The notes beneath the pieces were generated by a model that worked only from the letters and a program-made list of their open reading frames with translations, did not search any database and was not told where the DNA came from. Below, one piece after another: positions 14,931 to 34,400 of a stretch of DNA of 64,000 nucleotides. Origin of the DNA: Sphingosinicellaceae bacterium (lineage in GTDB: Bacteria; Pseudomonadota; Alphaproteobacteria; Sphingomonadales; Sphingomonadaceae); the NCBI GenBank assembly GCA_019285715.1, contig CP079108.1, positions 2,929,001 to 2,993,000 of the forward strand, in the 5' to 3' direction. The translations under genes were made by a program, and so were the position numbers. Positions within the stretch are counted from its first letter, which is position 1; every line of letters begins with the position of its first letter.

Positions 14931-15005
14931 CAGCCGGTCTGCTCTGGACTGCTGTTTGCAGGTCCAAGGCGGCGCGTCGGCGTGATTGAGTATCTGGAGA
15001 AGAAC

Positions 15006-15487: not shown

Positions 15488-16426
15488 CTAGCTAATCAGG
15501 ACGACGCCGCCCGGCAGATGATGCAGGCGCAGCGCGAGCAGTTGCTGGAGCTGGTTAAGGGCCGCTTCGAGCTGGTCGGTATAAAACACGCCGCTGACCG
15601 GTCGTTGCGACAAGGCCGCGTCCGTCAGCAGGATCGGGGTCGCGCGGTACCGATTGATCTGCGCGACGACCTCGGCCAGCGGCGTCGCCTCGAACGCCAG
15701 ATAGCCCTGTCGCCAGCCGACGGCTCGGGCCGACACGACCGCCGCGCGCGCGCTACGGCCATCGGCGGTCAAGGTGAGCTGTTGGTCCGGCCTCACCGCC
15801 GAGGTGACCCCGTCGTGCCGGCACAGGACCCCACCGGAGATACAGGTTACGCGCACATCAGCCCCCAGAAACTGCACGTCGAACGCGGCTCGGGTCGCCA
15901 GCAGTCGGGCGCGCCCGGCGGTCACGCCGAACGGCGTGGCCCGGTCGATCGCTACGAAGGCCTCGCCGTCGATCAGACCGAGCGTGCCTCCCGCGTCGTG
16001 CAGCGACACGCTGGTCCGCGTGTTCAATTCGATGTTGACGCCGACGCCTGGAGCAAAGGCCAGGCGCTCGCCGACGCCGGTGCGGCGATCGGCCATCAGT
16101 TCGGCGTAGGATGGCCAGAGGCCGAGCGGCGGTCGCGCCATGCCAAACGCGATGCCGCCGGCGACCATGGCACCGCCTGCCGCGAGCACGCCGCGGCGGT
16201 CGACAACAGGGGCTCGCTTGAGGGCGCGCGCCACCGGGCGCATCCCCGCCAGTTGCCGAAAGGCCAGGTCGTGCGTCGGATCTGCGGTGCGCCACGCTTC
16301 AAGCGCTTCGGCATCGGCTTCGGTAGCGTCGCCCGACGACAGGTTCACCAGCCAGTCGATAGCCTCGACGACCGCGGCATCGAGGTCGCCGTCAGGCGGT
16401 CGCGCCGGCGGTGCAGCGCTGGTCAT
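15488..16426 (-). CDS. FecR-family anti-sigma / sigma-regulator membrane protein
   Basis: A 312-residue FecR-type protein. The N-terminal DUF4880-like region (about 10-65) has AIDWLVNLSSGDATEADAEALEAWRTADPTHDLAFRQL. A single membrane segment follows at about 78-97 (GVLAAGGAMVAGGIAFG). The periplasmic FecR domain (about 115-205) includes RTSVSLHDAGGTLGLIDGEAFVAI and a C-terminal part resembling an STN fold. It should hold the co-encoded ECF sigma at the membrane and receive a periplasmic signal. ATG 16426 gives a 43-bp gap from the sigma gene. An upstream ATG at 16513 would overlap the sigma gene by 44 bp and add an unlikely leader. Confidence 0.85.
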   Translation of the reverse strand: MTSAAPPARPPDGDLDAAVVEAIDWLVNLSSGDATEADAEALEAWRTADPTHDLAFRQLAGMRPVARALKRAPVVDRRGVLAAGGAMVAGGIAFGMARPPLGLWPSYAELMADRRTGVGERLAFAPGVGVNIELNTRTSVSLHDAGGTLGLIDGEAFVAIDRATPFGVTAGRARLLATRAAFDVQFLGADVRVTCISGGVLCRHDGVTSAVRPDQQLTLTADGRSARAAVVSARAVGWRQGYLAFEATPLAEVVAQINRYRATPILLTDAALSQRPVSGVFYTDQLEAALNQLQQLLALRLHHLPGGVVLIS

Positions 16427-16469
16427 CTGGTGCCTGGCGTCGGCTGCGGCATTGGTATCGGGATCCCTG

Positions 16470-17069
16470 TCACTTCCTAGATACTCTGAGAGTCCCAATC
16501 GCGAAGCGATCATTCCCGGCCATGCCGCGCGCGACGTGAATTAGCGCCTGACGCAAATCACTTTGTACCGTCCGTATCGTAACTCCGTACCGGTCAGCGA
16601 GTTCGGCATGAGTGGCGTCGCCGGTAAAACTTTCTAGGAAAATCTCGCGCTGACGCCGAGTCAGGCCATGCAAGGTCCGGCGCAGATGAGCGATTTCGTT
16701 GCGGGCGATGGCGATACGCTCCGGCCCCGGCGCGTCGTCGGCGATCGACAGAAGATCATCGATGTCGCCAGTACCGAGCACGCGACGCTGGGCGGCACCG
16801 AGTTTCGAGGCGTTGTTCAGCGCGGCTCGAAAAAGATAAGCCTGCTGATTGTCGACCGGTGCCAAGGCCGGGCCATCCTGCAGCCGCAACCAGGTCTCGT
16901 GCAGTGCCTCGCCCGCCAGATCGATCGAACCGAGCCGCGCGGTCAGCCGTTTGCGCAGCTGATCGTATCCGTCGACCAGCGTATTGCGCAGGACCGCCCG
17001 CACCGTCGGGCGTTCGGCCCCGGCCGGTGCAGCGTCGGGCTCGTCGTCGGCGGGTGCGGCAGCGTTCAA
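16470..17069 (-). CDS. ECF (FecI-like) RNA polymerase sigma factor
   Basis: A 199-residue ECF sigma factor. Region 2 is seen at about 28-75 (LRNTLVDGYDQLRKRLTARLG, then LAGEALHETWLRLQD). Region 4 is at about 130-185, with LTRRQREIFLESFTGDATHAELADRYGVTIRTVQSDLRQALIHV. The start overlaps the upstream STN-protein stop by ATGA. FecI-type factors direct transcription of transport genes when a surface signal passes through FecR. The neighbouring target candidate is the divergent secretion operon starting at 18702. The N-terminal 25 residues are acidic and Ala/Pro-rich, beyond the usual domain. Confidence 0.87.
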   Translation of the reverse strand: MNAAAPADDEPDAAPAGAERPTVRAVLRNTLVDGYDQLRKRLTARLGSIDLAGEALHETWLRLQDGPALAPVDNQQAYLFRAALNNASKLGAAQRRVLGTGDIDDLLSIADDAPGPERIAIARNEIAHLRRTLHGLTRRQREIFLESFTGDATHAELADRYGVTIRTVQSDLRQALIHVARGMAGNDRFAIGTLRVSRK

Positions 17070-17806
17070 CCGAAGCTGCCGAGGCTGCCGGTCGTGACGT
17101 CGAAGCGCATCGGCTGTTCGAGCTCCGGTGGTGGCGGCGTGGACAGCTGCCGCCCGGTGAGCGCCTCGGGCAGGTCGTCGACTGGCGCTGTATCAGCGCT
17201 TTTCCGAATGACGTCGACGTGCTCGATGCGTCCCGCAGGGTCGATCCCGATGGCGATGCGGAGCTGCACACTGCGGCGACTGAACGCCGGATCGGTATTC
17301 AACATGGTTCGAATTTCGCCCTGTGCGCGCCGCGCATAGTCGAGAGCAGCATGCCGGACCGGGGTGCCGATCGTCAGCGGCGCGCGGACCTCGGCCAGAT
17401 CGAGCCGCAGCGAAGGCAGCCGGCCCGGCAAGGTCGTCGGGGGCGGTGCGCTGCCGCCCGGATAGACAATGGCGGAGGCCGGACCCGTGAAGCGTGCGTC
17501 GAGGCCGGTCCCGGCAAGCAGCGCCCGCAGCGCGATCTGCACGGTATAGCGACCCCGGATCGCGACCGACCGCCGACGCACGGCCAACTCGCTTTCGTAG
17601 GCGATGCTGACCCGCGCCTTCCTGGCGAAATTCGCCAGCGCCAGATTGAGCGGCTGGGCAGCGATATCGAAGGAGTACTCGACGATCGGCGCGCTGGCCT
17701 GCGCTGCGACCGGCGATACGCCCGGCGCGATCTGGCTAGCGAGCAGCACCGCGCCGGCCGCCACGACGCCCCAGCCCCGGTCGTTCGTGGACACGTGGAC
17801 TGCCAT
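17066..17806 (-). CDS. Exported STN-domain protein with TonB-C-like tail
   Basis: A 246-residue exported protein. A signal sequence covers about residues 1-35 (GVVAAGAVLLASQIAPGVSPVAAQ). An STN (secretin/TonB short N-terminal) domain follows at about 42-112 with FDIAAQPLNLALANFARKARV and ALLAGTGL. The last 100 residues, VQLRIAIGIDPAGRIEHVDVIRKS onward, resemble a TonB C-terminal fold. STN domains normally form the signalling extension of FecA-type receptors. Here it is free-standing and sits directly before the sigma gene (ATGA overlap) and after a TonB-like gene (ATGA overlap). It may replace the receptor as the FecR partner. STN call is good; the tail call is tentative. Confidence 0.72.
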   Translation of the reverse strand: MAVHVSTNDRGWGVVAAGAVLLASQIAPGVSPVAAQASAPIVEYSFDIAAQPLNLALANFARKARVSIAYESELAVRRRSVAIRGRYTVQIALRALLAGTGLDARFTGPASAIVYPGGSAPPPTTLPGRLPSLRLDLAEVRAPLTIGTPVRHAALDYARRAQGEIRTMLNTDPAFSRRSVQLRIAIGIDPAGRIEHVDVIRKSADTAPVDDLPEALTGRQLSTPPPPELEQPMRFDVTTGSLGSFG

Positions 17807-18468
17807 CAACCGAGGTTGAACGCCACCGGCAGGCTGATATCGATCCTGGCCGGCCAGTCGACCGGTAGCCGCGGCAACGGCTGCGCCCGCGCCACGGCGT
17901 CCAGCGCCTCGCGATCGATGGCGACGGCACCGGAGCTCGATTCGATCCACGGCTCCGTCACCCGTCCCTCACGATCGAGGACGAAGTGCAGCACCACAAC
18001 GCCCTGATCGCCGGCATGTTGGGCCGCAACGGGATAGATCCGGTAATGGGCAAGATGCGCCTGCAGCAGGAGGCGAAAGGCGGCGGTCTCGGCGCTTGGG
18101 ATGTCGGCAATCTCGCGCACGGTCGGGGTGACCGCTGTCACGATTGTGCCACGATCGCCGATCGTGCCGGGAGCCGAGTGGTCGCTGGTCGCGGTCTGCA
18201 GCGGCGCGGCGGATGCGACCTGCAGACGCTCGCGAGACTGCGTTTTCTCCACCACAGGGTCGAGGGCTGCGGCGGCCGCGGTTTCGCCAGGCGTCTGCTC
18301 CACGATGGGCAGCAGCGCGAAGACCTTGAGCGAACCGGCGGCGGCCGGGTGGCTGACGATCGGTTGGGAGCGCTCGATGGCGGTCAGCAGCGCATAACCG
18401 AGCGCCAGATGTGCCGACACCGACAGGAAGAGCACAGCGAGCCGGGACGGGTCCCACTGGCTAATCAT
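17806..18468 (-). CDS. TonB-family energy transducer
   Basis: A 220-residue TonB-like protein. It has one N-terminal membrane anchor at about 9-28 (RLAVLFLSVSAHLALGYALL), a flexible middle, and a C-terminal TonB domain at about 130-220. The domain contains LAHYRIYPVAAQHAGDQGVVVLHFVLDREGRV and SGAVAIDREALDAV. The middle is less proline-rich than usual. It opens a leftward four-gene cassette (TonB, STN, sigma, FecR) whose members overlap or nearly touch. It lies 233 bp from the divergent TpsB start. A second, proline-rich TonB is encoded at 22500, so the two may have separate roles. Confidence 0.82.
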   Translation of the reverse strand: MISQWDPSRLAVLFLSVSAHLALGYALLTAIERSQPIVSHPAAAGSLKVFALLPIVEQTPGETAAAAALDPVVEKTQSRERLQVASAAPLQTATSDHSAPGTIGDRGTIVTAVTPTVREIADIPSAETAAFRLLLQAHLAHYRIYPVAAQHAGDQGVVVLHFVLDREGRVTEPWIESSSGAVAIDREALDAVARAQPLPRLPVDWPARIDISLPVAFNLG

Positions 18469-18701: not shown

Positions 18702-20327
18702 ATGATTCATAGAATAAGCCTGCTCGCGCCGGTCGCTCGCGCCGTCTTGCTGGTGACGGCCGGGCTGGCAGCGCCGGTGCTTGCGCAGTCAGCGGCGCCG
18801 GTGCCGCCGGCGCCGCCGGCTGCGGTTGCGGCAGCGACGTTCGACGTGTTGGCGATTGCTGTGAGTGGCAACACGGTGTTGCCCCCGGCGGAGGTCGAGG
18901 CGCTGGTCTATCCATCGATGGGTCCGGGCAAGACCGCGACGGACATCGAGGTAGCGCGCGCGGCGTTGCAGGCGGCGTTCGAGAAGCGCGGCTATGCGAC
19001 GGTATCGGTGATAATTCCCGAGCAGTCGGTGGACAGCGGCACCATCCAGCTCGAGGTGCAGGCGCAGGCGATCGGCACCGTGACCGTGGCCGGGGGCAAG
19101 CGGACGACCGCGGACTGGGTGCTGAAGCGGGCGCCCTCGCTGGCGGCGGGGACGGTGCCCGACTTCACCGCGGTGCAGCGCGATATCGTCGGGTTGAACC
19201 GCTCGGCGGACCGCAAGGTCAGCCCGGCGGTCACGGCGGGCGTGGCGCCGGGCACGGTCGACGTGGTGCTGAACGTCGCGGACAAATTGCCCCTGCACGG
19301 CACCCTTGAGGTCAACAACTTCAGCTCGGTAGCGACCAGTGACCTGCGGGTCGCGGCGTCGCTGCGCTACGACGACCTATGGGGGCGCGGCGACAGCATC
19401 TCCGTCTCGGCGCAGACCGCGCCGCGCCGTTCCAAGGACGGCACCGTGGTGTCGGGCAATTACCTGGCGCGGGTCGGCGGCATCCAGCTGATGGCCTACG
19501 GGGTCTATTCGGACAGCGATATCGCGGTCGTCGGCGGCACCAGCGTCATCGGCCGAGGCACCATCTTCGGCGGCCGTGCCATCGTGCCGCTGAGCCAGAG
19601 CGCGGGCTTCTACCAGAGCCTGACCGCGGGCCTCGACTGGAAGAAATTCAAGGAAGACGTCCGGCTCGGCGCCGACCGCGATTCCGCGCCGATCGAGTAT
19701 TTCCCGGTGACGGTCGGCTGGCGCGGCGACTGGACCGGCGACCGGGTGCAGTCGAACGCCGGCCTGACGACGGTCTTCGGCGTGCGCGGGGCCGGCGACG
19801 ATGCGGTGCGGTTCGACTACAAGCGCTACGGCGCCAAGCCCAATTTCTTCATCGTCAAGGCTGAACTCGGGCAGACCCGGACGCTGGGCGACTTCGAGGT
19901 CTACGCCCACGCCGGCGCGCAATGGTCTCCCGACCCGCTGATCTCCAACGAGGGCTTTTCGCTCGGCGGCATGGAAAGCGTGCGCGGGCTGTACGAGTCC
20001 GAGGCACTCGGCGACTGGGGGATCGCGGCGCAGTCCGAGCTTCGCCTGCCCGAGCTGTCGTCGCTGTTCGGGACCGCGGGCGGCGCCGGCAAGCCGGTCG
20101 GGTCGCTGCGGGTCGTGCTGTTCGCCGACGGCGGTACGGCGGGCATCCACCGGCCACTCGCCGGGCAGGAGCGGCGCTGGACACTTGGCTCCACCGGGGT
20201 CGGCGTCCGCTTCAAGGTCTTCAACTATCTCAACGGCGCCGGCGACTTCGGCACGCCGCTGGTCGACGGCCCGGACTCCCGGTCCGGCTCGCTTTTTGCT
20301 CGATTCCGTATCTGGGGGGAATTTTAA
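18702..20327 (+). CDS. TpsB/ShlB-FhaC-type outer-membrane two-partner secretion transporter
   Basis: A 541-residue outer-membrane transporter. Signal sequence at about 1-25 (LLVTAGLAAPVLAQ). A POTRA-like part includes VSGNTVLPPAEVEALVYPSMG, AAFEKRGYATVSVIIPEQ and IQLEVQAQAIGTVTV. The 16-strand barrel carries LRYDDLWGRGDSISVSAQTAP and the loop-L6 motif GMESVRGLYESEALGD (VRGY/F type), ending FARFRIWGEF. TpsB proteins move a large partner exoprotein through the outer membrane. ATG 18702 is preceded by a three-codon frame, ATGGGGTGTTGATG, whose stop overlaps it. An earlier in-frame ATG at 18513 would spoil the signal peptide. The next gene starts directly after its TAA. Confidence 0.9.
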   Translation: MIHRISLLAPVARAVLLVTAGLAAPVLAQSAAPVPPAPPAAVAAATFDVLAIAVSGNTVLPPAEVEALVYPSMGPGKTATDIEVARAALQAAFEKRGYATVSVIIPEQSVDSGTIQLEVQAQAIGTVTVAGGKRTTADWVLKRAPSLAAGTVPDFTAVQRDIVGLNRSADRKVSPAVTAGVAPGTVDVVLNVADKLPLHGTLEVNNFSSVATSDLRVAASLRYDDLWGRGDSISVSAQTAPRRSKDGTVVSGNYLARVGGIQLMAYGVYSDSDIAVVGGTSVIGRGTIFGGRAIVPLSQSAGFYQSLTAGLDWKKFKEDVRLGADRDSAPIEYFPVTVGWRGDWTGDRVQSNAGLTTVFGVRGAGDDAVRFDYKRYGAKPNFFIVKAELGQTRTLGDFEVYAHAGAQWSPDPLISNEGFSLGGMESVRGLYESEALGDWGIAAQSELRLPELSSLFGTAGGAGKPVGSLRVVLFADGGTAGIHRPLAGQERRWTLGSTGVGVRFKVFNYLNGAGDFGTPLVDGPDSRSGSLFARFRIWGEF

Positions 20328-22067
20328 ATGTCTTTGTCCGAACGCCTTAAGCGGGGCCTCCTGACGGGGGCGCTGGCCGCCACGACGGCGCTGAGTTTTG
20401 CCGCGCCCGCACACGCCTGGTGGCAGGGCGACTATGCCTATCGCACCCGGATCAACCTCGATGCAACGGCGGCCGGCGTCGCCACCGAGGTCGTGCGCGC
20501 GCCGATCCTCGTCCGGCTGCACCAGGGCAACTTCAGCTTCGCGGACGTGAAGCCGGACGGCTCCGACCTGCGCTTCGTCGGCGGTGACGACCGCACGCCG
20601 CTCAAGTTCAGCATCGAGCGCTGGGACCCACAGGCGCAGCAGGCGCTGGTCTGGGTCGACGTGACCGCGATCAAGTCCGGCGCGCGGTCGGCGATCTATG
20701 CCTATTACGGCAACAAGACCGCCAAGCCCGGCCAGGACCCGGCCGGGACCTTCAACGGCTACCGCGCGGTCTATCACTTCGACGGCAGCGAGTTGCACGA
20801 CGCGACCGTCAACAACGTCGCCGCCGGCGGTGGTGCGGGGACCACGCCCGGGCTGATCGGCCAGGGGCTGAAGCTCGATGGCACGACCCCGGCGACGATC
20901 GCCGCTGCTGCCTTCCCGGGCGGTCCGCTCGGCGTTTCGCTGTGGGTCAAGCCAGGAGCCGCCGCCGGCCACCTGCTCGACGTGCCGGGCAGCGCCGCGC
21001 TGGTGCTGGAGGGCGGCCGCCTGTTCCTCGAGGCGAACGGAAAGCGCAGCGCCGGGGCACCGCTCCCGGCCGGCACCTGGGCGCATGTCGCGCTGTCGAA
21101 CGACGGCGCGAAGACCCTGCTCTATGTCAACGGCCAGCCCGCCGGCGAGGTCGCGGGCGCATTGCCGGCCGCGACCGGACCCGCCGCCATCGGCACCGGC
21201 TTCACCGGGACCGTCGACGAACTGCGGGTCTCGGCCGGTGCGCTGTCACAAGGCGCCACTCAGCTCGCCACCGCCAGCGAGGGGCAGACGTCGAAGCTTC
21301 TGAGCTTCGACACCGCCGAGCAGACTGAAGGCCCGGGCCACAACTACTTCGGCATCCTGTTCGCGGCGCTGACCCCCGATGCGTGGGTGGTCATCGGCAT
21401 CCTCGGCATCATGCTGGCGATCGCGGTCTGGGTGATGATCACCAAGGGCCTGCTGGTCGGCCGCGTCGGGGCCGCCAACGACGACTTCCTCGACGCCTAC
21501 CAGCGCCAGGCCAAGCGCAGCACCGGCCATGACGGCCTGCCGGCGTTCGACCCCGGCGCCGGGGCGGCGAGCTCCACGCTCGGCCGCCTCTACCAGATCG
21601 GCCGGCGCGAACTCGCCGACCGCCTTGCGGAGGGCCGCGCGTCGGACTCGCGCTTCGCGATCCGGGCGCAGTCGATCGCGGCAATCCGCTCGGCACTCGA
21701 TGCTGCGCAGGTCCGCGAGAGCCAGCGCATCAACAAGCAGATGGTGCTGCTGACCATCGCCATCTCGGGCGGGCCGTTCATCGGGCTGCTCGGCACGGTG
21801 CTCGGCGTGATGATCACCTTCGCCAGCGTCGCGGCGGCGGGCGAGGTCAACATCAATGCGATCGCGCCGGGCATTGCCGCCGCGCTGCTGGCGACGGTGG
21901 CCGGCCTGGCGGTCGCGATCCCCGCGCTGTTCGGCTACAACTACCTGCTCAGCCGGGTCGAGGAGATCACCGCGGAAAACCAGATCTTCGTCGACGAGCT
22001 GGAAAAGCGCATCGCCGAGACGTGGCAGGACATCGCCGCCACTCCCGCCATGCTCGCCGCCGAGTAA
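20328..22067 (+). CDS. DUF2341-LamG-MotA/TolQ/ExbB fusion protein
   Basis: A 579-residue fusion. Signal sequence 1-30 (ending AAPAHA). A DUF2341-like domain spans about 31-135 (WWQGDYAYRTRINL, VWVDVTAIKSG, IYAYYGNKTA). A LamG/concanavalin-like domain spans about 145-305 (YRAVYHFDGSELHDAT, SLWVKPG, WAHVALSNDG, VDELRVS). Then membrane segment 1 at about 351-374, a cytoplasmic part, and the ExbB/TolQ core with segments at about 473-500 (GGPFIGLLGTVLGVMITFAS) and 511-540. Standard ExbB/TolQ lacks this large exported beta-sandwich. It follows the TpsB stop as TAAATG with GGGGGA ahead, and precedes ExbD. It probably forms the proton channel, with the periplasmic domain binding a glycan or the exoprotein. 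Confidence 0.87.
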   Translation: MSLSERLKRGLLTGALAATTALSFAAPAHAWWQGDYAYRTRINLDATAAGVATEVVRAPILVRLHQGNFSFADVKPDGSDLRFVGGDDRTPLKFSIERWDPQAQQALVWVDVTAIKSGARSAIYAYYGNKTAKPGQDPAGTFNGYRAVYHFDGSELHDATVNNVAAGGGAGTTPGLIGQGLKLDGTTPATIAAAAFPGGPLGVSLWVKPGAAAGHLLDVPGSAALVLEGGRLFLEANGKRSAGAPLPAGTWAHVALSNDGAKTLLYVNGQPAGEVAGALPAATGPAAIGTGFTGTVDELRVSAGALSQGATQLATASEGQTSKLLSFDTAEQTEGPGHNYFGILFAALTPDAWVVIGILGIMLAIAVWVMITKGLLVGRVGAANDDFLDAYQRQAKRSTGHDGLPAFDPGAGAASSTLGRLYQIGRRELADRLAEGRASDSRFAIRAQSIAAIRSALDAAQVRESQRINKQMVLLTIAISGGPFIGLLGTVLGVMITFASVAAAGEVNINAIAPGIAAALLATVAGLAVAIPALFGYNYLLSRVEEITAENQIFVDELEKRIAETWQDIAATPAMLAAE

Positions 22068-22073
22068 GCGTCG

Positions 22074-22496
22074 ATGCAGATCCAGGGCAAGAAGCCGTAC
22101 AACGAGATCAACATCACGCCGCTGGTCGACCTGACCTTCGTGTTGCTGATCATCTTCATCCTGCTGACCACGGCGGCGGTCCAGGGCATCAAGGTCGATC
22201 TGCCCTCGGCATCGTCGACGCAGGCCCTTAACCAACCCAAGTCGCGGGTCATCGCGGTCGCTGACGACGGCACCGTGTCGATCGACGCGATCCCGGTGTC
22301 GATGGCGGAGCTGGAGCTGCAGTTGCGCTCCAGCATCGCCGCGACGCCCGACCTCGCGGTGATCCTGCGCGGTGATCGCAGCGTCCAGTACGACCAGGTC
22401 ATGGCGGTGCTCGACCTGTGCTCGAAGGTCGGCGTGCCCAGCCTCGGCATGGCCGCGACCCGCCCGCCGACCACTTCGTCGACGCCGGGAGCCTGA
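22074..22496 (+). CDS. exbD: ExbD/TolR-type biopolymer transport protein
   Basis: A 140-residue ExbD-family protein with a short cytoplasmic N-terminus (NEINITPLVDLTFVLLIIF). Its single membrane helix at about 17-38 carries the conserved functional Asp in PLVDLTFV (Asp19). A periplasmic domain follows with VIAVADDGTVSID and VILRGDRSVQYDQVMAVLDLC. It starts 6 bp after the ExbB fusion and ends 3 bp before tonB, so the three are one unit. It pairs with ExbB to use the proton gradient to move TonB. Confidence 0.93.
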   Translation: MQIQGKKPYNEINITPLVDLTFVLLIIFILLTTAAVQGIKVDLPSASSTQALNQPKSRVIAVADDGTVSIDAIPVSMAELELQLRSSIAATPDLAVILRGDRSVQYDQVMAVLDLCSKVGVPSLGMAATRPPTTSSTPGA

Positions 22497-22499
22497 GTC

Positions 22500-23216
22500 A
22501 TGGCGCTCGCAGCCCCGGCCCCGACATATGACGCGGCGGCGTTCGACGCGGCGTTCGCGCAAACCCCGGTGCGGACCCGGCGAGGCCGTCGCCCGCCCAT
22601 GGGGCTGCTGGTCGCGGCGGCACTGGTCGTGGTGGTCGCGCTGATGCTGTGGCGCGGCGATGCCGTCAGCCTGCGTCCCGGCGAGCAGAAGACCGTCAAG
22701 GTCGTGCTGCCGCCACCGCCGCCACCGCCACCACCCGAGGTCAAGCCGGTCGAGAAGCCCCCTGAGCCAAAGCCGATGCCGCTCGAGACGCCAGTCACCG
22801 ACGTGCCGCCACCACCGACCCCGCAGGCCGAGCCGGTCGCGGGCGACAGCGCCCTGAGCGCACGCGAAGGGGCGGGTCCGAGCAACTACGGCCTCGCGGT
22901 CGGCGACGGCGGGGGCACCCGCATCGGCATCAAGGCCGGCAGCGGCGACAACGGGTTCGCGAATTATGCCGCCGCCGTGCTCACCGACATCCGACGGGCG
23001 ACGCAAGCCGACCCGGCACTGGCGCGGGGCCGCTACCGGGTCATGCTGGCGGTTACGGTCGACAGCGATGGGCGCATCACCACTGTGCACCTGCTCGGCA
23101 GCACCGGCAGTGCGAAGCGCGACGCCGAGATCGAGCGCCGCCTGGCCGGGCTGCAACTGTCGCAACGCCCCCCAGCCGGCCTGCCGGTGATGCGGATCGA
23201 ACTCAACGCCGCCTGA
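22500..23216 (+). CDS. tonB: TonB energy transducer, proline-rich
   Basis: A 238-residue TonB. The cytoplasmic start is about 33 residues, longer than the usual few. A membrane helix covers about 34-53 (MGLLVAAALVVVVALMLW). A periplasm-spanning proline-rich region runs from about 69 to 112, with a nine-proline run and Pro-Lys/Pro-Glu repeats. The C-terminal domain at about 150-238 has NYAAAVLTDIRRAT, YRVMLAVTVDSDGRITTVHLLGSTG and IERRLAGLQL. It completes the ExbB-ExbD-TonB set next to the TpsB gene. Targets could be the receptors in the window or an outer-membrane protein of this secretion locus. Confidence 0.9.
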   Translation: MALAAPAPTYDAAAFDAAFAQTPVRTRRGRRPPMGLLVAAALVVVVALMLWRGDAVSLRPGEQKTVKVVLPPPPPPPPPEVKPVEKPPEPKPMPLETPVTDVPPPPTPQAEPVAGDSALSAREGAGPSNYGLAVGDGGGTRIGIKAGSGDNGFANYAAAVLTDIRRATQADPALARGRYRVMLAVTVDSDGRITTVHLLGSTGSAKRDAEIERRLAGLQLSQRPPAGLPVMRIELNAA

Positions 23217-23287: not shown

Positions 23288-25003
23288 ATGTCGCGTCACC
23301 GCCTGAAACTGCTGCTGCTCGCCGGGTCTGTCCTGGTCGCCGCTGCCCCCGCCGCCGCCCAGCAGGTCGACTCCAACACATTGCTCGAGGTCATGGTGCG
23401 CAAGGGCGTCGTCACCCGCGTCGAGGCCGATGCGATGATCGCCGAGGCCAAGGCGAAGGGGGCCGCCGCCGCCCCGGTCGCTACCGCCGCCGCCGTGCCC
23501 GCCGGTACGCAGGTCATCCCCTACATCCCGCAGGTCGTGCGCGACCAGTTGAAGGCAGAGCTGCGCACCGAACTTGCCGACCAGGCCAGCACCGAGGGCT
23601 GGGCCAAGCCGGGCGAGGTCGCCGAATGGACCAAGCGCATCACCATCTCGGGCGACATCCGCGTCCGCGGCGAGGGCGTCCGGTTCGACAAGCCCAAATT
23701 TACCAACGGCCTGCAGACCGGCGGCAACTACGCCGACTTTCCCAACTTCGGCGCGATCAACAGCGGTTCGGCGTTCAACCAGAATGTCGGCGCGGCCGGT
23801 TACGCCAACCCGCCCTACCTGAACACCACCGAGAACCGCGACCGCGCCCGCATCCGCGCGCGGCTGGGCATCGCGGCGCGCGTCGACGACCATGTCGTCG
23901 CCGAAGTCCGCATCGCGACCGGCTCCGACCGTTCGCCGGTGTCCACCAACCAGACGCTCGGCAGCAACGGCGAGTTCGGTAAATACTCGATCTGGCTCGA
24001 CCGTGCCGACATCCGCCTGACCCCGGTCAAGGGCGTCGAGGCCGTGCTCGGCCGCTTCGCCAACCCGTTCTGGACGTCGGAGCTACTGTTCGACGACGAT
24101 CTCAACTTCGACGGCGTCGCAACCTCGATCAACTATCCGGTTACCGACCACGTCGGGGTGTTCGCCAACGCCGGTGCGTTCCCGATCTTCAACACCGACT
24201 TCAACTTCGGCTCCAACGACGCTGGCTCGTTCGCGTCGAAGGACAAGTATCTCGTCGCCGGCCAGATCGGCATCGTCGTCACCCCGTTCGAGGCAGTCAG
24301 CCTGAAGCTCGCCGGCGGCTACTTCCGCTTCGAGAAGGTCCAGGGCGAGCTGTCGTCCCCGTGCCCGTTCAACCAGGACGTCTGCGATACTGACGCGATG
24401 CGGCCGGCATTCCAGCAGTTCGGTAACTCGCTCAAGCCCCTGCGCAATATCGTCGCCGACCCCTCGGCCGCCCCGGGCACCAGCGCCGACCGCCAATATT
24501 ACGGGCTGGCTTCGAAGTTCCAGATCCTCGACGTCCATGCCGCGCTCGACCTCGGCTTCTTCGCCGCCGCGCCGGTCCGGCTCGAGGGCGACTACGTCAA
24601 AAACCTCGGCTTCGACCGCGCCGGCATCGCCGCGACTGCGATCAACCCGTCGAGCTTCGGCCCGGGCACGACGGTCGGCACGGTGACCAAGCCTGGCGCC
24701 TTTGCCGGTGGCGACATCGGCTGGCAGGCCAATTTGATCGTCGGACAGCCCGAGCTGACCAAGCGTGGCGACTGGAAGCTGCTCGCCGGCTACCGCCACA
24801 TCGAATCCGACGCGGTCCTCGATGCGTTCGCCGACAGCGACTTCCACTTCGGCGGGACCAACGCCAAGGGCTATATCCTCGGCGGCTGGTACGCCTTCGC
24901 CAAAGGCACCTCGATCGGCGCGCGCTGGCTGTCGTCGGACGCGATCGCCGGGCCGACCTATTCGAACGACGTCCTCCAGATCGACCTGACGACCAAGTTC
25001 TGA
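23288..25003 (+). CDS. Putative outer-membrane porin (Porin_5-like)
   Basis: A 571-residue exported protein. Signal sequence is about 1-24 (LLLLAGSVLVAAAPAAAQQ). A short helical segment follows with LEVMVRKGVVTRVEADAMIAEAKAKG, then a predicted beta-barrel starting ITISGDIRVRGEGVRFDKP. Repeated amphipathic strands follow, such as NRDRARIRARLGIAARV and LLAGYRHIESDAVLD. The protein ends in the typical barrel terminus with a last Phe (VLQIDLTTKF). A pattern of this kind is common in putative porins of sphingomonads. It lies inside the secretion operon and its stop overlaps the next start (TGATG). It may be a general or glycan-specific pore. A role in exoprotein export is possible but untested. 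Confidence 0.78.
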   Translation: MSRHRLKLLLLAGSVLVAAAPAAAQQVDSNTLLEVMVRKGVVTRVEADAMIAEAKAKGAAAAPVATAAAVPAGTQVIPYIPQVVRDQLKAELRTELADQASTEGWAKPGEVAEWTKRITISGDIRVRGEGVRFDKPKFTNGLQTGGNYADFPNFGAINSGSAFNQNVGAAGYANPPYLNTTENRDRARIRARLGIAARVDDHVVAEVRIATGSDRSPVSTNQTLGSNGEFGKYSIWLDRADIRLTPVKGVEAVLGRFANPFWTSELLFDDDLNFDGVATSINYPVTDHVGVFANAGAFPIFNTDFNFGSNDAGSFASKDKYLVAGQIGIVVTPFEAVSLKLAGGYFRFEKVQGELSSPCPFNQDVCDTDAMRPAFQQFGNSLKPLRNIVADPSAAPGTSADRQYYGLASKFQILDVHAALDLGFFAAAPVRLEGDYVKNLGFDRAGIAATAINPSSFGPGTTVGTVTKPGAFAGGDIGWQANLIVGQPELTKRGDWKLLAGYRHIESDAVLDAFADSDFHFGGTNAKGYILGGWYAFAKGTSIGARWLSSDAIAGPTYSNDVLQIDLTTKF

Positions 25004-25383
25004 TGCTCCGAACTGTCTATTTTGTCGGCGTGGCGTTCGTCCTGGCGGTCGTCATGGCCGCGACCATCGCCGTGCCCTCGGCGGCGGGGCCGGTGATCGG
25101 CGGCGGCCCGATGACGCCGTGCATCGTGGTCGACATCGCCGGTACGCGCGCCGGCAGCGTCGACTGCGCCGCCGCGCGCCTCGGCGCCGCCGCCCGCACC
25201 GCGCAAGACCGCGCCGGCAGCACCGGCATCGCGGTACCGGACGCAAGATCGCCCGGCGTCGTCACCGGGGTCGCCAGCCAGACCGCGACGCGCCAGCGCA
25301 TTGGCAAAACCTTCGGCACCGGCGTCCGCCCGCAGCGGCCGCCGACGCCCGTCTACACCAACCCTATCGGCAGCCGGCCATGA
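25003..25383 (+). CDS. Small exported protein of unknown function
   Basis: A 126-residue protein not recognised as a named family. An N-terminal hydrophobic segment at about 4-28 (TVYFVGVAFVLAVVMAATIAV) acts as a signal or anchor. Two cysteines (in TPCIVVDI and SVDCAAAR) lie early in the mature part and could form a disulfide. The rest is Ala/Thr-rich, ending in a Pro-rich tail (GVRPQRPPTPVYTNP). Its ATG overlaps the porin stop, and its stop overlaps an ATG of the exoprotein reading frame by ATGA, so it belongs to the operon. Its position directly before TpsA suggests a helper of the exoprotein. That is inference. Confidence 0.6.
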   Translation: MLRTVYFVGVAFVLAVVMAATIAVPSAAGPVIGGGPMTPCIVVDIAGTRAGSVDCAAARLGAAARTAQDRAGSTGIAVPDARSPGVVTGVASQTATRQRIGKTFGTGVRPQRPPTPVYTNPIGSRP

Positions 25384-25412: not shown

Positions 25413-28400
25413 ATGATCCGCATCCCGCTGCACCGCCGCACCCTGCTCGCCGGAGCCTCGGTCGCCGCGCTGGTGCTGGCCGGACCGGCCGCCGCCGAGC
25501 CGTTCGGCCGCCGCACCGCGGTCGACCCCGCCGCACAGGCCGCCCGCGCCGCCGAGACGGCCGCCACCCGCAACGTCGCCGCCACCGCCGCCGCCACCCG
25601 CACGCGCGCCGCGTTCGCGGCCGCCGCCCAGGCCCGCCAGCTCATGGACGGGGTCCAGGCCGCCGCCCGCGTCGCCGCGCTCGCCGGGAAGAGCCTCGTC
25701 CCCAACGGCCTCGGCGCCGGCGGCCTGCAGGTCGCGGCCGGCGTCGGCGTCGATCCGACCCTATGGGTCAACGCCGCCGCCCCCACCCAGACCACCACCG
25801 GCGGGCGCACCGCCGTCACCGTCACCCAGACCGCCAGCAAGGCGATCCTGACCTGGGACAGCTTCAACGTCGGCCGCGAAACCGACCTGACCTTCAACCA
25901 AGCCGGGCATACCGACTGGGTCGCCCTCAACCGCATCACCGGCGTCACCGCCGACCCGTCCAAAATCCTCGGCACCATCAAAGCCGACGGCGCCGTCTAC
26001 ATCATCAACCAGAACGGCATCATCTTCGGCGGCGCCTCACAGGTGAACGTCCGAAGCCTGATCGCGTCGAGCCTCGATATCCACGGCGGTACGATCGAAA
26101 CGACGCAGCCCAACGACGCCGGCGGCAATCCGATCAGTGACGCGCTGTGGCAGCAGGCGAAGATCGCAGCGCGGGATGCGCGGTTCATCGCGGGGCTGGC
26201 GGCCCCGACCGCGACGCCGACGTTCAGCGACTATGTCCAGAATGACTATTCTGCGACGCCGCCGGAGGTTCCGACCACGGACCAGGTGGTTGTGGAGCGC
26301 GGGGCGCGGATCGCGGTGGCGCCGCTCGGGCAGGCGATCCTGCTGGGTCATGACGTCGTCAATGCCGGGACGATCACCGCGCCCGACGGCCAGGTGCTGC
26401 TGTCCGCCGGTGGGAGTATCATCCTCCAGCGCGGCGTCGACCGGACACAGGTCGATGGCAACAGTGCCGACGGGCAGGTTCGCGGCTATGTCACGGCGGT
26501 GCGGGGGTACGGCAAGGCACGCAACGACGGCGTGGCGGAAGCGACGCGCGGCAACGTCTCGCTCCATGCCGACGAGGTCGAGCAGAACGGCGTGATCGCG
26601 GTCACCACGGCGATCGACCGCGCCGGCTCGATCATCCTCGACACCTCGGTCAGCCCGCTGAACGGCAATACCGCCGTGAACGTCGGCTATGCCTACAACT
26701 ACGGCACTGTCAGCATCGGCGCGGGCAGCTCGATGTCGATCCTGCCGGACGCGAGCGGGGCGACCGCGGTCGGCAATACCTTCAAACCATCGACGGTCGA
26801 GATCTTTGGCACCAACATCAGCTTCGGCGAGGGCGCGACCTTGTACGCGCCGGGCGCGAAGGCGTTCATCTACGCGCCCGCCAACGCCCTGGCGGGGCGT
26901 TTCTACCTTGGCGCCGGGGCGACCATCGACTTGTCGGGGCTTGGCGATGTCACCGCTCCGATGAGCCAGAACCAGATCGCGGCAGAACTGCGCGCCAACG
27001 AGTTGCGCGACAACCCGGTGCTGCGCGACAGCGCCTTGCGCGGGCAGTCGGTGTTCTTCGACGCGCGCCTCGGCAGCAAGCTGACGAACGGCACCGGCGT
27101 CGCCGATCTCAGCGGCTGGTACGACCTGATCCCGCGCACCGTCAGCCAGTTCATGACCGGCGGCGGCTCGCTGACGCTGCAACAGTCGGAGATCGTCACG
27201 CGCGCCGGGTCGGTCATCGACCTGTCGGGCGGCAGCGTCCATTATGCCGACGGCATGGTCCGGCGGACGCGGCTGATCGACGGCTCAGGGAAACTGGTGC
27301 CGATCGAGTTCGCCGACACTGCGACCACTTACGTCGGCATCGAGGGCGACGCCATCACCAGCCATGTGCGCTGGGGCATCACCGAGCGCTTCACCAGCGA
27401 CTTCACCCGCGGCCTGAGCCAATGGCAGGCCGGCTACGACGAGGGCCATTCGGCCGGGAGCCTGAGCGTGCTGACGCCGGGCCCGGGGTTCGACAAAGCG
27501 CGCATCTTCGACGGGACCGTCCGCGCCGATACGGTAACGGGCCAGTACCAGGTCGCCGCCCCGGCGGGATCGACCGTCACCGACGCGACCAAGGTCTGGC
27601 AGGAGCGCCCGGCACTCGCGACGCTCAACTTTTCCAGCGTCGACGGTTTCGGTCGCGCCCCGCTAGGTGGAAACATCACGATCGCGGCGGGCGGCCCGCG
27701 GCTGGACAGCAGCTCCACCGCCGACACCGTGTTGTTCGATACCGAGAACGGCAATGCGTCGCTGGTGAACGGCATCGTCGCCGCCGATCACATCCTGCCG
27801 GCCAACTGGTTCGACGGCAAGACCTTCGGGACGGTGGCGCTGCGCGCCGGTGTCGAGAATTATTATACCTACGAAACGTCGAACAACCTCAACTTCACGC
27901 CGGTGGCCGGGCATCCGCTGATCGGCGGCGTCCTGACGATCGGTGCCGGCGTCACCGTCAACCTTGGCGACTACGGCAAGTTCGAGTTCCTCGGCCGGCA
28001 GGCCGAGATCGACGGCACCATCGTCGCGGCCGGCGGATCGGTGAAGCTGCAGACCGTCGAGACCGTGATGTACGACTCCTACACAGCGATCCCGGGGGAG
28101 CAACTCGTGCCCGGTGACGTTCTCGGCACGCACCTCGGCGCGACCGGCGTCATCGACGTCGCGGGCCGCTGGACGAACAATCTGCAGGAGAACCTCGACG
28201 GCGAGCCGCTGACGCAGGCCGTGATCAACGGCGGCTCGGTGACGATCGTCGCGCACGACCTGCTCCTCGACGCCGGCTGGCGGATCGACGTCAGCGGCGG
28301 CGCGCAGCTGACGACCGGAGGCGGCTCGCCGATTCTCGGCAACGGCGGCGCGATCCTCCTCGACAACAGCCAGGGCGGGCAGGCAACGCGGACCGCCGAA

Positions 28401-31400
28401 CCGAGCGGGCGCATCGTTCTCGACGGCGCGCTGGTCGGCTACGCACCGGGCCGGGGCGGCAGCCTGACCGTCGATACCAACCAGTCGGTCTACATCGGCG
28501 GCGCGGCGATCCTGCCGTCGGGTGTACTCGGCGCCGGCAACGCGGCCGCGGTCAAGCTGCTGCTCAGCGCTGATGCCGTCCTACCGGCTGGGGCGACCTT
28601 GCCCTTCCCAGTCAATTACAGTGCCGCCGTCGTGCCCGCCGGGGCGGCGTTCGCGCAGGACACGGGCCTGTACCTCCCGAATGGCCCGCTGCCGCCGCTG
28701 GCCGCCGACTGGACCGTGCCGGGCACCGATTTCTACATCCAGGACGACGCCGGAAACACGTATTTCTCCGGCTCGGTGGTTCCCGCCGGCACCGTCATCC
28801 CGTTCCTGAACGGCACCTTCACGGCGGGTTCGACGCTGCCCGCCGACGTTTTTCCGAACGGCATCGCCTTTCCGTCCGCGGTCGGCCTTCTGCAGCCGGC
28901 CGGCGTCCTCATGACCCCGTTCACGCTGCCGAAGGGGCTGGCGATCGCCGCCGGGACGGTGTTCGGTGTCGATGTCGGGATCGTCGCGCCCAAGACCTAT
29001 GCCGCAGATTTCTTCACCAAGGGCGGTTTCGCAAGCTACGAACTGGCCGGTTCACAGGGCGTGACGCTGACAGCGGGCACCATCCTCGCGCCGACCATCG
29101 ATACGCTGACGCTGGGCGCCGTGTCCGGGCTGGCGACAGGCGCCCGTCTCGGCGACCTTGTCTTGGTTGCCGGCTCGGGGGTGACGCTGGTCAACTCCGC
29201 GAGCCTGCCCGAGGCGCGCCGCCCGGCGATGGACCTCGTCCTGTCCACCGTCGCGACGAGCATCGACGGCAGCTCGCTGTTCAGCCGGATCAACGGCGAC
29301 TTCGGCCGTGTCGATCGGGGCGGGACGCGCAGCCCCGGCAGCGTGACGGTCGAGACCGGGGCGGCGATCAAGATGAGCGCCGGCTCGCGCGTCTTCCTCG
29401 ACAGCGTCACCGGCATCGCGGTCGACGGGACGATCGACGCGGCGGGCGGGATCATCCGGATCGGCGGTCTCGGCAGTTCCGACTATGGTAGCCCCGGCAC
29501 GCAGATCAGCATCGGCGACAACGCCCGGCTGACGGCGCGCGGCTATCAGGAGGCGCTGCTGGCCGGCGGCATCACCACCCGCACCGTGAAGGGCGGCGGC
29601 CAGATCCTGATCGGCGGGACGAGCAGCGCCACGGACAGCATCGGCGAAAACCAGGTCCGCGCCGTCGCGATCGGCGCGGGCGCGGTGCTTGACGTCTCGG
29701 GCATCCACGGCACCAACGACCTGATCGCCGGTATCTCGGCCGGCATCGACAGCGGTCGGACCGACGCGCCGAAGGTGGCGGTGGCGGTTGCCGTCGACGG
29801 CGACGCCGGGACGATCCTCGTCCATGGCACCACCGGCATCATCGCCGGGTCGCTGCAACTCGCGGCGGGCGGCGCAACCGGCCGCGCCGGGACGCTGAGC
29901 ATCGGCCAGGCCAGCCCAACAGCACCGCTGATCGTCCGCCAGTCCACCCCGGCAGGACTGGAGCCGGTCACCCTGGCCAGCGACATCGCACAGGACGGGC
30001 TGACGCTGGTCGCGGACTCCATCCACGGTGTCGGGCAACTGACGCTGGCAACAGGCCACGGCTATTCCCTCACCCATATGCAGGGCATCCTGTTCGACGG
30101 CTCGGTGACGCTTTCGGCGCAGCGCGGGATCACGCTGGAGGCCGACCGGATCCAGCGGACGATCGATGCCGAAGGCGCGCCGAGCGTGGTAACGCTGTCG
30201 GCTCCGTATGTGCGCTTCAAGGGGAACGACGCCGTCGGGCCAACTTACGGCGACCCGGTCTATGCAACCGACCTCAACGGCTCGCTGACGGTGCGCGCCA
30301 ATCTGATCGACCTCAGCGGCGCGATGCAGTTCGACTGCAGCGCCAGCAATTGCGACGTGCCCGGCAATGGCGGCTTCGGCACCTTGCTGTTCCAGTCGGC
30401 GGGCGACGTGCGGCTGATCGCCGGCGGCGGCCTCGACCCGAATTCGCAGCAACCGCTGCGAACGGGCCTGACCAGCGGCGGCGACATCATCTTCGACGCG
30501 GCGCAGGTCTATGTGACCAACGGTATCAGTTCCCCCTACAATGGCGGCCAGCTCGAGCGCGGCGACGCCGACCCGGGCTTTCTGGTGCAGGCCGGGCAGC
30601 GGATCGTCGTGCGCTCGAACGGCGCGGCGGCCCCGATCCCGCTCAACTTCGGCGAGCGGCTGACGCTGCGCGCGCCGGTCATCGAACAGAGCGGCGTCCT
30701 GCGCGCGCCCGCCGGGCAGATCCGGCTGGAGGCCTCCGACCGCCTGACGCTGGCGCCCGGCAGCCTGACCTCGGTCTCGCTCGGCGGGCTGACCGTGCCG
30801 TTCGGCGGCGGGGGGTTTGAGGGTTACGGCCGGGTCGACTGGGCGCCGACCCGTGCGGTGGCGCTGACCGGCGGGACCGTCGATGCGCAGGCCGGTTCGC
30901 GGGTCGAGGTCACCGGCGGCGGCGACCTGCTCGGCTGGTCGTTCGTTGCCGGCACCGGCGGGACCACGGACATATTGGCGAACAAATCGGCGGACGGCTA
31001 TTTCGCCATCCTGCCGAGCCTCGGCGACCGCCCCGCACCGCAGCATCCTGTGGCGAACAGCGGCGGCCTGGAATCGACCTCCAACGCGCTCAGCGATCCC
31101 CGGCTCAGCGTCGGCGACACCATCTGGCTTGGCGACTCCGCCGGGGTGAAGGCGGGCTATTACATCCTGCTGCCGGCTTATTACGCACTGCTCGACGGCG
31201 CGCTGCTGGTGCGGCCGAAGGGGGCGACCGCTTATGCCTCGCCGTTCGAGACGGTGACGCACGCCGACGGATCGCACGTCACCGCCGGCTATACCGCCGT
31301 GTCGGGGACCGCAATTCGCGGCCCGTGGTCGGCGTTCGAGGTCCTCGATAGCAAGACGTGGCGCCAGTACAGCGACTTCACGTCGGTCTCGTTCAACGCG

Positions 31401-34400
31401 CAAAAATCCGCCGCCGCGACACTGGCGGGCATCACCTTGCGGACGCTGGCCGATGCGGGCGGCGTCCAGGTAACGGCACAGGACAGCCTCAACCTGGCGG
31501 GCAGCATGGACTTTTCGGCGGCCAAGGGCCTGATCGGGACGCTCGACATCGCCAGCGACCGGATCGCGGTCACCAACGGCACCGCGCCCGAGGGCTATCT
31601 GCGCGTCGATGCAAAGCAGATTGAGGCGCTGGGCGCCGGCAGCGTGCTGATCGGCGGCACCGGGCCGAGCAACAGCTTCGCCGCGTTCGACTACAGCACC
31701 TACACGCCGTTCGGGATCCGGCAGGGCGTCGCGCTGACCACCGTCGCGACCGACGTGCTGGTCACCGCCGGCACGACGCTTAAGCTGGGCGAACTGCTGC
31801 TCATCGCCAGCGATTCGGTGACCATCGACGACGGCGCGGTGCTGAGTGCGACGGGCAAGCCGGGCGACCCGAGCAAGCTGCTGGTCGCCGGTGACGGCGC
31901 GCTGGTCCGCCTGACGGGGGGCGACCGCGTCGCCATCGTGCGGACGGGTGCGGCCGGGCAAACGGGCAGCCTGCGGATCGGCGAGAATGCGCGGCTGACC
32001 ACGGCGGGTGCGCTGTCGCTCGATGCCAGTATCGGTTTCGACCTTGCGGGCACGGCGCTGCTCGACGTGGCGCGGCTCGACCTGGCGTCGGACCGCATCA
32101 ACCTCGGCGACGTGCCGGCGGGTGAAAGCGGCACGACCATCGGCCTCGATACCGTGCGGCGTCTCGCCGCTTCGGCCGACCTGTCGCTGCATGGTCGCCA
32201 GTCGATCGACCTGTACGGCGACCTCACGCTCGGCGCGCGCGATGGCGGTGGCAAGGCGTTGCTGGCGGCGCTGACGCTCGATACCGCACTGCTGCAGGGC
32301 CACGCCGAAGACGGCGCGGGCGCGGCATTGACGGTCGGCGTGCTGACCCTGACGAACAGCAATGTCGCCGGAGCCGAGGCGATAGCCGGCACGGCGGCGC
32401 TGGCGCTCGATGTCGATACGCTGGTGCTCGGGCCGGGCTCGACCGGGGTCGGCGGCTATGCGGGCATCATCGGCCGGGTCGGCGAGATCCTCACCAAGGG
32501 TACGGGTAGTTTGAACGTCGGCGGCGACCTGACGCTGGCCACCGGCCGGGTCACTGCCGGGACCGCGTCGAAGTTCGAACTGGCGACCAGCGGTGCGCTG
32601 ACCTTGGCGCACGGTGACGTACCGGTCGCTGCCGCAGGTCCCACGTTGGGCGGCAGCCTGACGCTGACCGGAGCGGAGCTGACGCTGGGCACTGCGATCG
32701 TCGCGAACGCGGGCACGGTCATGCTCGGCGCCGCGGGTGATATCGCGCTGCTCGACGGGGCGCGCATCGACGTCTCGGGCCGCGCCGTCGACTTCCGCGA
32801 CACGGTGAAATACGCGCCCGGCGGCATTGTGCGCCTGACTGCGACAGGCGCGGTCGCGCTCGCGGCTGGGTCGCTGGTCGACGTCTCCGGGGCGGTACGC
32901 GGCGGGAGCGCCGGCATCGTCGAAATCCGGGCGGCCGGGGACGCGACACTGGGCGGCGACCTCAGCGCCACGTCGGCGGCCGGCTATGCGGGCGGCGAGT
33001 TCCTGCTGGCGGCGAACCACACCGACTTCGGGGCGTTGAACTCCCGCCTGAACACCAGCGGCTTCGATGCCGCGCGCGACATCACCTTGCGCCAGGACAT
33101 CGTCCTCGACGCCGGCAGCAGCATCGTCGCGCACCGCGTCGCGCTGCATTCGGAGGGTGGCACCGTGCAGATCGGCGGGGCCATCGACGCGCGCGGCAAC
33201 GCGGCCGACGCCGACGGCGGCGTCGTCCTGCTAAGCGGCGCTGCGGTGGAGCTGACCGGCACCATCGACGCCAGCGCCGGGTCCGCCGTTGCGGGCGGCT
33301 ATGACCCGTCGAGCGGCACCGTGGAGCTTGCCGGCAACTCGGTCACGCTGGGCAACGGCTCGGCCATCATGCTCGGCGGCGGACGCCAGGGCGGCGGGCG
33401 CCTCATGGTCCGCGCCGACCGCATCGGCACCGGCGTCAACGCGACGCTGGGTGGCACCACGACCGGCGCGCGCGAGCAGACGCTGGTCGGCATGGCGGAC
33501 TATGCCACCGACACCGTCGATGCCGATGTGGCCATGACCGCCATCGATGCCGCCAACGGCTGGCTGGCGACCGTCAGCCAGACCGCCGGCTGGACCACCG
33601 GTGCGGGTATCGCATTCACCAGCGCCGGCGACCTGTCGGTGAATTCGGCCATCGACCTCGCAGTGGTGAACGGTGCGGGCTATCTCGGGCTCAAGGCCGC
33701 CGGCGACATCCTCGTCGACGCCAGCATCAGCGACGGCTTCTCCAGCGCCGGGCGGGACGCCACCCTCGAGGCGGGCCGGTCATTCAGCTATGGCTTCGAC
33801 GCCGGGCGCGACGTGGTGATCGGGGCGGACCGCCTCGTTCGCACCGGTACCGGCGACATCCGCGTCGCCGCCGTCCGCGACCTCGTGCTGACTACCAACG
33901 GCTCGGTGATCTACACCGCCGGCAGCGCGACCCCGACGACGACGGGCTTCGACCACAGCGGCTTCGGCCCCGTGGCAGTCGACGGCGGCCGCGTTCTCGG
34001 CGAGTTTCCGACGCTGGGCGGCAACGTCTCGCTCGCCGCCGGGCGCGACATCTCCGCGCCGATCGTCACCCAAAGCGCCTCGGCGTGGCTGTACCGCTAC
34101 GGCAACTCCGCCTGGGATGGCACTCCCGACCACACTGCGGTCCTCGAGCAGACCAGCTGGTCGATCGTCTATGGCAACTTCCAGTCGGGCGTCGCGGCGT
34201 TCGGCGGCGGCAACGTCCGGGTCCGCGCCGGGCGCGACATCTGGGACCTCGGCGTCGCGCTGCCGACCACCGGCTACCTGACCACCGGCGTCGGCAATCA
34301 CGCGCAGGCGAGCGACCTTGTCGTCCGCGGCGGCGGCGACCTCGATGTACGAGCGGCAGGCGACCTCAACGGCGGCTTCTTCGTCCTCGGTCGCGGCCAT

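Follow-up and report, generated by a model that had tools for sequence, protein, structure and literature searches.

A DUF2341-LamG-ExbB fusion subunit of a putative Ton-type motor paired with DUF3739-class two-partner secretion exoproteins

Two-partner secretion (TPS), as described in textbooks, needs no external energy source. Nevertheless, in Pseudomonas aeruginosa genes of a Ton-type motor accompany a TPS transporter gene: the PUMA3 regulon comprises pdtB, exbB2, exbD2, tonB4, PA0696 (putative porin), PA0697, PA0698 (YbjN), and PA0699 (PPIase), with vreA-vreI-vreR (PMC2729926, PMC7035377), and the genes starting with pdtB-exbB2-exbD2-tonB4-PA0696 form one transcript controlled by VreI and PhoB (PMC4971064, PMC7035377). 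A mutant in tonB4 (PA0695) retained the PUMA3-induced virulence in zebrafish (PMC2729926), which is not a direct observation on export. In the literature that we searched, no exbB2 or tonB4 mutant was examined for TpsA secretion, and DUF3739, the domain shared by the exoproteins discussed below, is not mentioned.

The window analysed here is a stretch of 64,000 nucleotides of contig CP079108.1 of a Sphingosinicellaceae bacterium. It contains a locus that corresponds to PUMA3/PdtAB (PA0692-PA0699) in the order of TpsB, ExbB, ExbD, TonB, and porin genes, in the presence of a DUF3739-containing TpsA, and in the adjacency of genes for VreA-, VreI-, and VreR-like proteins (15488-17806, minus strand; Table 1). 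The ExbB-type gene, which encodes a fusion protein, is co-directional with the genes of TpsB and TpsA and follows TpsB with a gap of 0 nt; the next gaps are of 6 nt (fusion-ExbD), 3 nt (ExbD-TonB), and 71 nt (TonB-Porin_5). The window locus differs from PUMA3 by the additional TonB gene beside vreA, and a tblastn search of the window for PA0697, YbjN, and PPIase at E 1e-4 gave no match. Genes of these three types occur past the porin gene in cassettes of relatives, but they are also missing from several other members, and we therefore treat them as accessory. No second ExbB gene lies near the window cassette, other MotA_ExbB genes being located elsewhere in the genome. A Pho-box scored with the consensus of E. 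coli type had no match above chance in the window, and no conserved candidate for a TonB box was obvious by eye in the N-termini of TpsB or the porin. In about nine other loci (e.g., in genomes G412, G617, G779, G009, and G1023), a relative of the small exported protein encoded between the porin and TpsA genes is encoded next to vreA or a TPS gene. An amidase ORF at 13922-14989 (plus strand) seemingly loses its frame near residue 290, its C-terminus resembling out-of-frame sequence, and is probably frameshifted or decayed.

Table 1. Positions of the fusion gene and its neighbours in the window
Feature	Position	Strand	Basis
VreR-like FecR-family anti-sigma factor	15488..16513	-	DUF4880 E 2e-13, FecR E 2e-5
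VreI-like ECF sigma factor	16470..17069	-	Sigma70_r4_2 E 5e-9
VreA-like signalling protein, STN + TonB-like C-terminal domain	17066..17806	-	Pfam, sequence match
Second TonB-type protein, first gene of divergent operon	17806..18468	-	Pfam TonB_C E 9e-14
TpsB outer-membrane transporter (POTRA_2 + ShlB)	18702..20327	+	Pfam
DUF2341-LamG-ExbB fusion, ExbB2-type motor subunit	20328..22067	+	Pfam, hydropathy, alignment, structure model
ExbD/TolR partner with conserved Asp25	22074..22496	+	Pfam ExbD E 7e-29; motif
TonB-type energy transducer: TM, Pro-rich spacer, TonB_2 C-terminal domain	22500..23216	+	Pfam
Porin_5 putative porin, PA0696 counterpart, recurrent cassette member	23288..25003	+	Pfam E 3e-174; recurrence
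Small exported protein, no family assigned	25003..25383	+	Relatives near VreA/TPS genes elsewhere
TpsA giant exoprotein, N-terminal TPS domain + C-terminal DUF3739	25413..36776	+	Pfam TPS E 5e-20, DUF3739 E 2e-28

The fusion gene is an intact open reading frame with a product of 579 aa. Three Pfam families match this protein above their curated cut-offs, namely DUF2341 (residues 77-155, E 3e-17), Laminin_G_3 (residues 185-308, E 3e-14), and MotA_ExbB (residues 445-550, E 4e-27). The signal peptide comprises residues 1-30 (MSLSERLKRG...APAHA, followed by WW), with the cleavage site after AHA. The periplasmic part has about 300 residues, and the linker past LamG runs to about residue 340, where the first of three hydrophobic segments begins (~340-381, ~471-505, and ~509-538, by hydropathy); within them we place TM1 at ~350-372, TM2 at ~471-500, and TM3 at ~509-538. 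With a cytoplasmic loop between TM1 and TM2, the predicted topology fits the N-out arrangement of ExbB. The Pfam matches, the signal peptide, and the topology confirm the initial annotation of the product as an exported DUF2341-LamG part joined to a TolQ/ExbB core.

A profile built from nine fusion members matches solved TolQ/ExbB chains with its C-terminal part and domain 4 of AbnA (PDB 5hon) with its LamG part (E 2e-14). The AlphaFold model of the ectodomain (residues 31-340), built from two sequences only, has an overall pLDDT of 53, with values of ~70-90 across most of the LamG half, and the modelled LamG half aligns with AbnA over 142 residues (Z 16.3, rmsd 2.0 A). A ConA-like jelly-roll fold of the LamG half is supported by both the profile and the model. 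For the DUF2341 half, which was modelled poorly, the support comes from Pfam alone; the full-length AlphaFold model, with two usable sequences, has a mean pLDDT of 50. Foldseek matches to neurotoxin binding domains were rejected as signs of kinship, since the common ConA-like jelly roll explains them.

Full-length relatives of the fusion protein, of about 35-48% identity, are encoded in 14 of the 398 sampled Pseudomonadota genomes (~3.5%), in 5 of the 385 genomes sampled from the class, and in 38 of the 119 from one Pseudomonas-like genus (its identity being inferred), as well as on plasmids of Burkholderia, Cupriavidus, Variovorax, Klebsiella, Methylosinus, and others. The recurrence of the open-frame fusion in dozens of species led us to reject a sequencing or assembly artefact and a one-off fusion event alike. 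One genome (G1023), which probably belongs to the P. aeruginosa complex, has, in this order, vreA-I-R, hxc-type secretion genes, a pdtA of 4,200 residues, phdA, pdtB, and a gene of the same DUF2341-LamG-ExbB fusion, so the gene known as exbB2 in this complex itself encodes the fusion. The literature found on P. aeruginosa terms ExbB2 a proton channel only and does not discuss the fusion. The rarity that the initial annotation implied is thus wrong, and the protein is a member of a subfamily that is widespread and barely described.

DUF2341, LamG, and MotA_ExbB are present together in all nine members scanned. In all 60 loci examined, the gene directly downstream of the fusion encodes ExbD, and in 52 of them the one directly upstream encodes TpsB. 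In five of the eight loci without an adjacent TpsB gene, the gene directly upstream encodes TpsA (preceded by TpsB in three cases and located on short contigs in two), while in the remaining three (G683, G008b, and a Methylomagnum plasmid) no TPS gene is within reach of the fusion gene. In the G683 locus (L043/L044), the gene after TonB encodes an exported protein of 563 residues with the look of a right-handed parallel beta-helix. One end of the 204-kb IncFIB/IncHI1B record of Klebsiella pneumoniae plasmid NZ_CP065459.1 (L032) carries a PUMA3-like cassette that is nearly complete (TpsA end, TpsB, fusion, ExbD, TonB, porin, YbjN, PPIase, and LysR).

The association with TPS is not limited to gene order. 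When identical genome sets were searched for the fusion and for DUF3739, the 14 genomes with the fusion among the 398 of Pseudomonadota were the same as the 14 with DUF3739, and so were the two sets of 38 among the 119 genomes of the Pseudomonas-like genus; not a single genome with one of them and without the other was found in either sample, about 500 genomes together. The chance of identical sets would be ~1e-25 and ~1e-32, respectively, if genomes were independent, which they are not, so that these values are illustrative only. In the sampled genomes, the fusion and the DUF3739-type TpsA thus form an obligate pairing. Linkage alone does not explain it, because in 27 of the 38 pairs in the Pseudomonas-like genus the two genes are separated by over 20 kb or belong to different contigs; in G683, too, the fusion and the DUF3739 exoprotein are encoded on separate contigs. 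Locus recurrence and this unlinked co-occurrence led us to reject a chance neighbourhood with TPS genes. As 26 of the 40 fusion-less genomes examined encode other TPS exoproteins and no DUF3739, the tie concerns the DUF3739 class and not TPS generally. One genome (G617) encodes three DUF3739 exoproteins and a single fusion, and its VreA/ECF/FecR sets are repeated; one motor may thus serve several exoproteins.

The TPS partners encoded in the cassettes have features of their own. The window TpsA has nearly 3,800 residues, and its DUF3739 occupies residues 3630-3744 of the 3796 translated, i.e., a place near the C-terminus. In FhaC, a plug helix and a linker precede the POTRA domains, while cassette TpsBs have only a short Ala/Pro-rich stretch ahead of POTRA. 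Only about 17 residues separate the predicted signal peptide of the window TpsB from its POTRA domain, which is too short for a plug helix with a linker and makes an N-terminal plug helix improbable. The plug helix of FhaC-type transporters thus seems to be missing from cassette TpsBs, and its absence would fit a TpsB that is gated in another way.

The core of the fusion protein is not a standard one, because the residue corresponding to Glu176 of E. coli ExbB is lost throughout the subfamily, a caveat to the initial annotation, which was to be judged by the conserved pore residues. For E. coli ExbB, Glu176 has been reported to be essential (PMC8599685), and a glutamate is present at this position in the TolQ and E. 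coli ExbB structure sequences that we compared; all 29 distinct fusion members, including the window protein (Ala518), have an alanine there. The Thr-Thr-Asp ion path, in contrast, is retained. Equivalents of Thr148 and Thr181 (Thr490 and Thr523 in the window protein) are invariant in the 29 distinct members, TM2-TM3 being the most conserved part of the protein, and the ExbD partners keep Asp25 in the motifs shown (ITPLVDL in the window). The trio of Thr148, Thr181, and Asp25 has been described as common to TolQRA, ExbBD, and MotAB (PMC12965293). As this ion path is kept, the motor probably still uses an ion gradient, and the subfamily can well represent a live ion-driven motor with altered coupling. 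The scores of the fusion protein are far below the NCBIfam equivalog cut-offs (112.5 vs. 221 bits for tolQ, 69 vs. 206 for exbB, and 72 vs. 135 for exbB2), and on the grounds of sequence we classify it as a member of the MotA/TolQ/ExbB superfamily (PF01618) rather than as a canonical ExbB or TolQ.

The co-occurrence suggests that the motor serves the DUF3739-type TpsA in its export or release, bearing in mind that co-occurring genes may share regulation without acting together and that the genomes in the samples are not independent. The option of the initial annotation that the fusion is linked to a passing exoprotein is well supported by the co-directional TpsB and TpsA genes, the recurrent arrangement, and the perfect co-occurrence with DUF3739-type TpsA. 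We consider it probable, with some reservation, that the fusion is a part of a dedicated Ton-type motor that aids DUF3739 exoproteins in being exported, retained at the surface, or released. The gene order, the DUF3739 pairing, the kept Thr148/Thr181/Asp25, the gap-free operon of the window, the ConA-like fold, and the single transcript of the counterpart genes in P. aeruginosa all speak for it; the alanine that replaces the E. coli-essential Glu176 in every member speaks against it, as do the virulence retained by the tonB4 mutant and the lack of an obvious TonB box in TpsB or the porin.

The fusion would then act as the A subunit of the dedicated motor of DUF3739-class TPS. Five copies would form an ExbB-like ring around an ExbD dimer (5:2, by homology), and on its periplasmic side this ring would carry five DUF2341-LamG modules. 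The cassette TonB would pass the ion-driven movement to an outer-membrane partner from the same cassette, be it TpsB, Porin_5, or TpsA with its DUF3739 end, and the movement could drive or gate a late step in the fate of TpsA: the finishing of export, surface retention, or release. A late step appears the likeliest task, because the only strict genomic partner is the DUF3739 TpsA and DUF3739 lies near the TpsA C-terminus. The lectin-like ring might anchor the motor at its work site via a periplasmic part of TpsA or TpsB or via a cell-wall glycan. We infer the stoichiometry, the ion flow and use of the proton motive force (pmf), the force transfer, and the ectodomain ligand, for which the exoprotein, TpsB, and a wall glycan are candidates. 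Putative glycan binding is suggested by the ConA-like fold only, and this fold also serves protein binding. As a broader and tentative proposal, which we hold with less confidence than the role of the fusion itself, there may exist a pmf-driven class of TPS whose DUF3739 exoproteins need a dedicated, lectin-ringed Ton motor for correct export, holding, or release.

Among other explanations, it is conceivable, if unlikely, that the motor energises uptake and not secretion. In this case TonB would act on the Porin_5 protein or on an unlinked TonB-dependent receptor, the secreted TpsA would capture a nutrient, and the ectodomain would sense the imported glycan or ligand. The regular presence of Porin_5 in the cassette and the phosphate-starvation control in P. 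aeruginosa (PMC4971064) fit such a nutrient role, and HxuABC, whose HxuA captures haem, is a known uptake system that combines TPS with TonB (PMC5422565). However, Porin_5 proteins are plug-less porins, the conserved cassette showed no TonB-dependent receptor (with systematic mapping of matches to cassette genes only), and the co-occurring partner is a class of exoproteins.

We regard as improbable that the fusion is a sensor in cell-surface signalling, where the motor, the VreA-like protein, and the exoprotein transporter would share a partner and the engagement of the exoprotein would tune the ECF sigma factor. VreA-like, ECF, and FecR genes do adjoin the cassette in the window and in many relatives, and the C-terminal domain of VreA matches that of the cassette TonB in dozens of loci (E ~1e-5 to 1e-13), in agreement with the published TolA/TonB-like model (PMC2729926). 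This applies to the TonB-like C-terminus of the VreA-like protein in the window. As their C-terminal domains are related, the VreA-like protein and the cassette TonB may dock on the same partner. Against the signalling role, the P. aeruginosa regulon stays on in phosphate-starved cells when vreA is deleted (PMC4971064), and several cassettes have no vre genes within ~20 kb. Still more improbable is a motor-dead structural anchor, i.e., an ExbB-like scaffold that conducts no ions and serves only to display lectin-like domains below the outer membrane: the uniform alanine in place of the glutamate of solved TolQ and E. coli ExbB could mark it, but the retained Thr-Thr-Asp trio (PMC12965293) and the high conservation of TM2-TM3 argue against it.

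If the fusion is, as we favour, a part of a motor that serves DUF3739 exoproteins, its pairing with them makes the use of an ion gradient by some TPS systems directly testable by removals of single genes. The pairing also suggests roles to be sought for DUF2341, DUF3739, and the uncharacterised ExbB2-ExbD2-TonB4 set, and the subfamily offers a natural Ton-type motor without Glu176.

The fusion shares with ExbB and TolQ of the TonB and Tol-Pal motors the MotA_ExbB core, three TM segments, both threonines, and the ExbD partner with Asp25, and differs from them in the exported ectodomain of 300 residues and in the alanine at the Glu176 position. An ExbB-like protein with a large extension is also known from the Vibrio TonB2 system, namely TtpC, which works beside a normal ExbB, whereas the fusion is the sole ExbB-type subunit of its own locus. 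Like the system described here, TonB2 is a Ton system with extra dedicated parts. TtpB, TtpC, and TtpD are essential parts of it (PMC6957404). One paper (PMC12505986) names DUF2341 as a domain appended N-terminally to non-flagellar A subunits of generic ion transporters, with no gene context, TPS link, or function given. The LamG half of the fusion resembles domain 4 of AbnA and other ConA-like binding modules in fold, but, in contrast to AbnA domain 4, it is attached to a membrane motor, and its sugar binding is putative.
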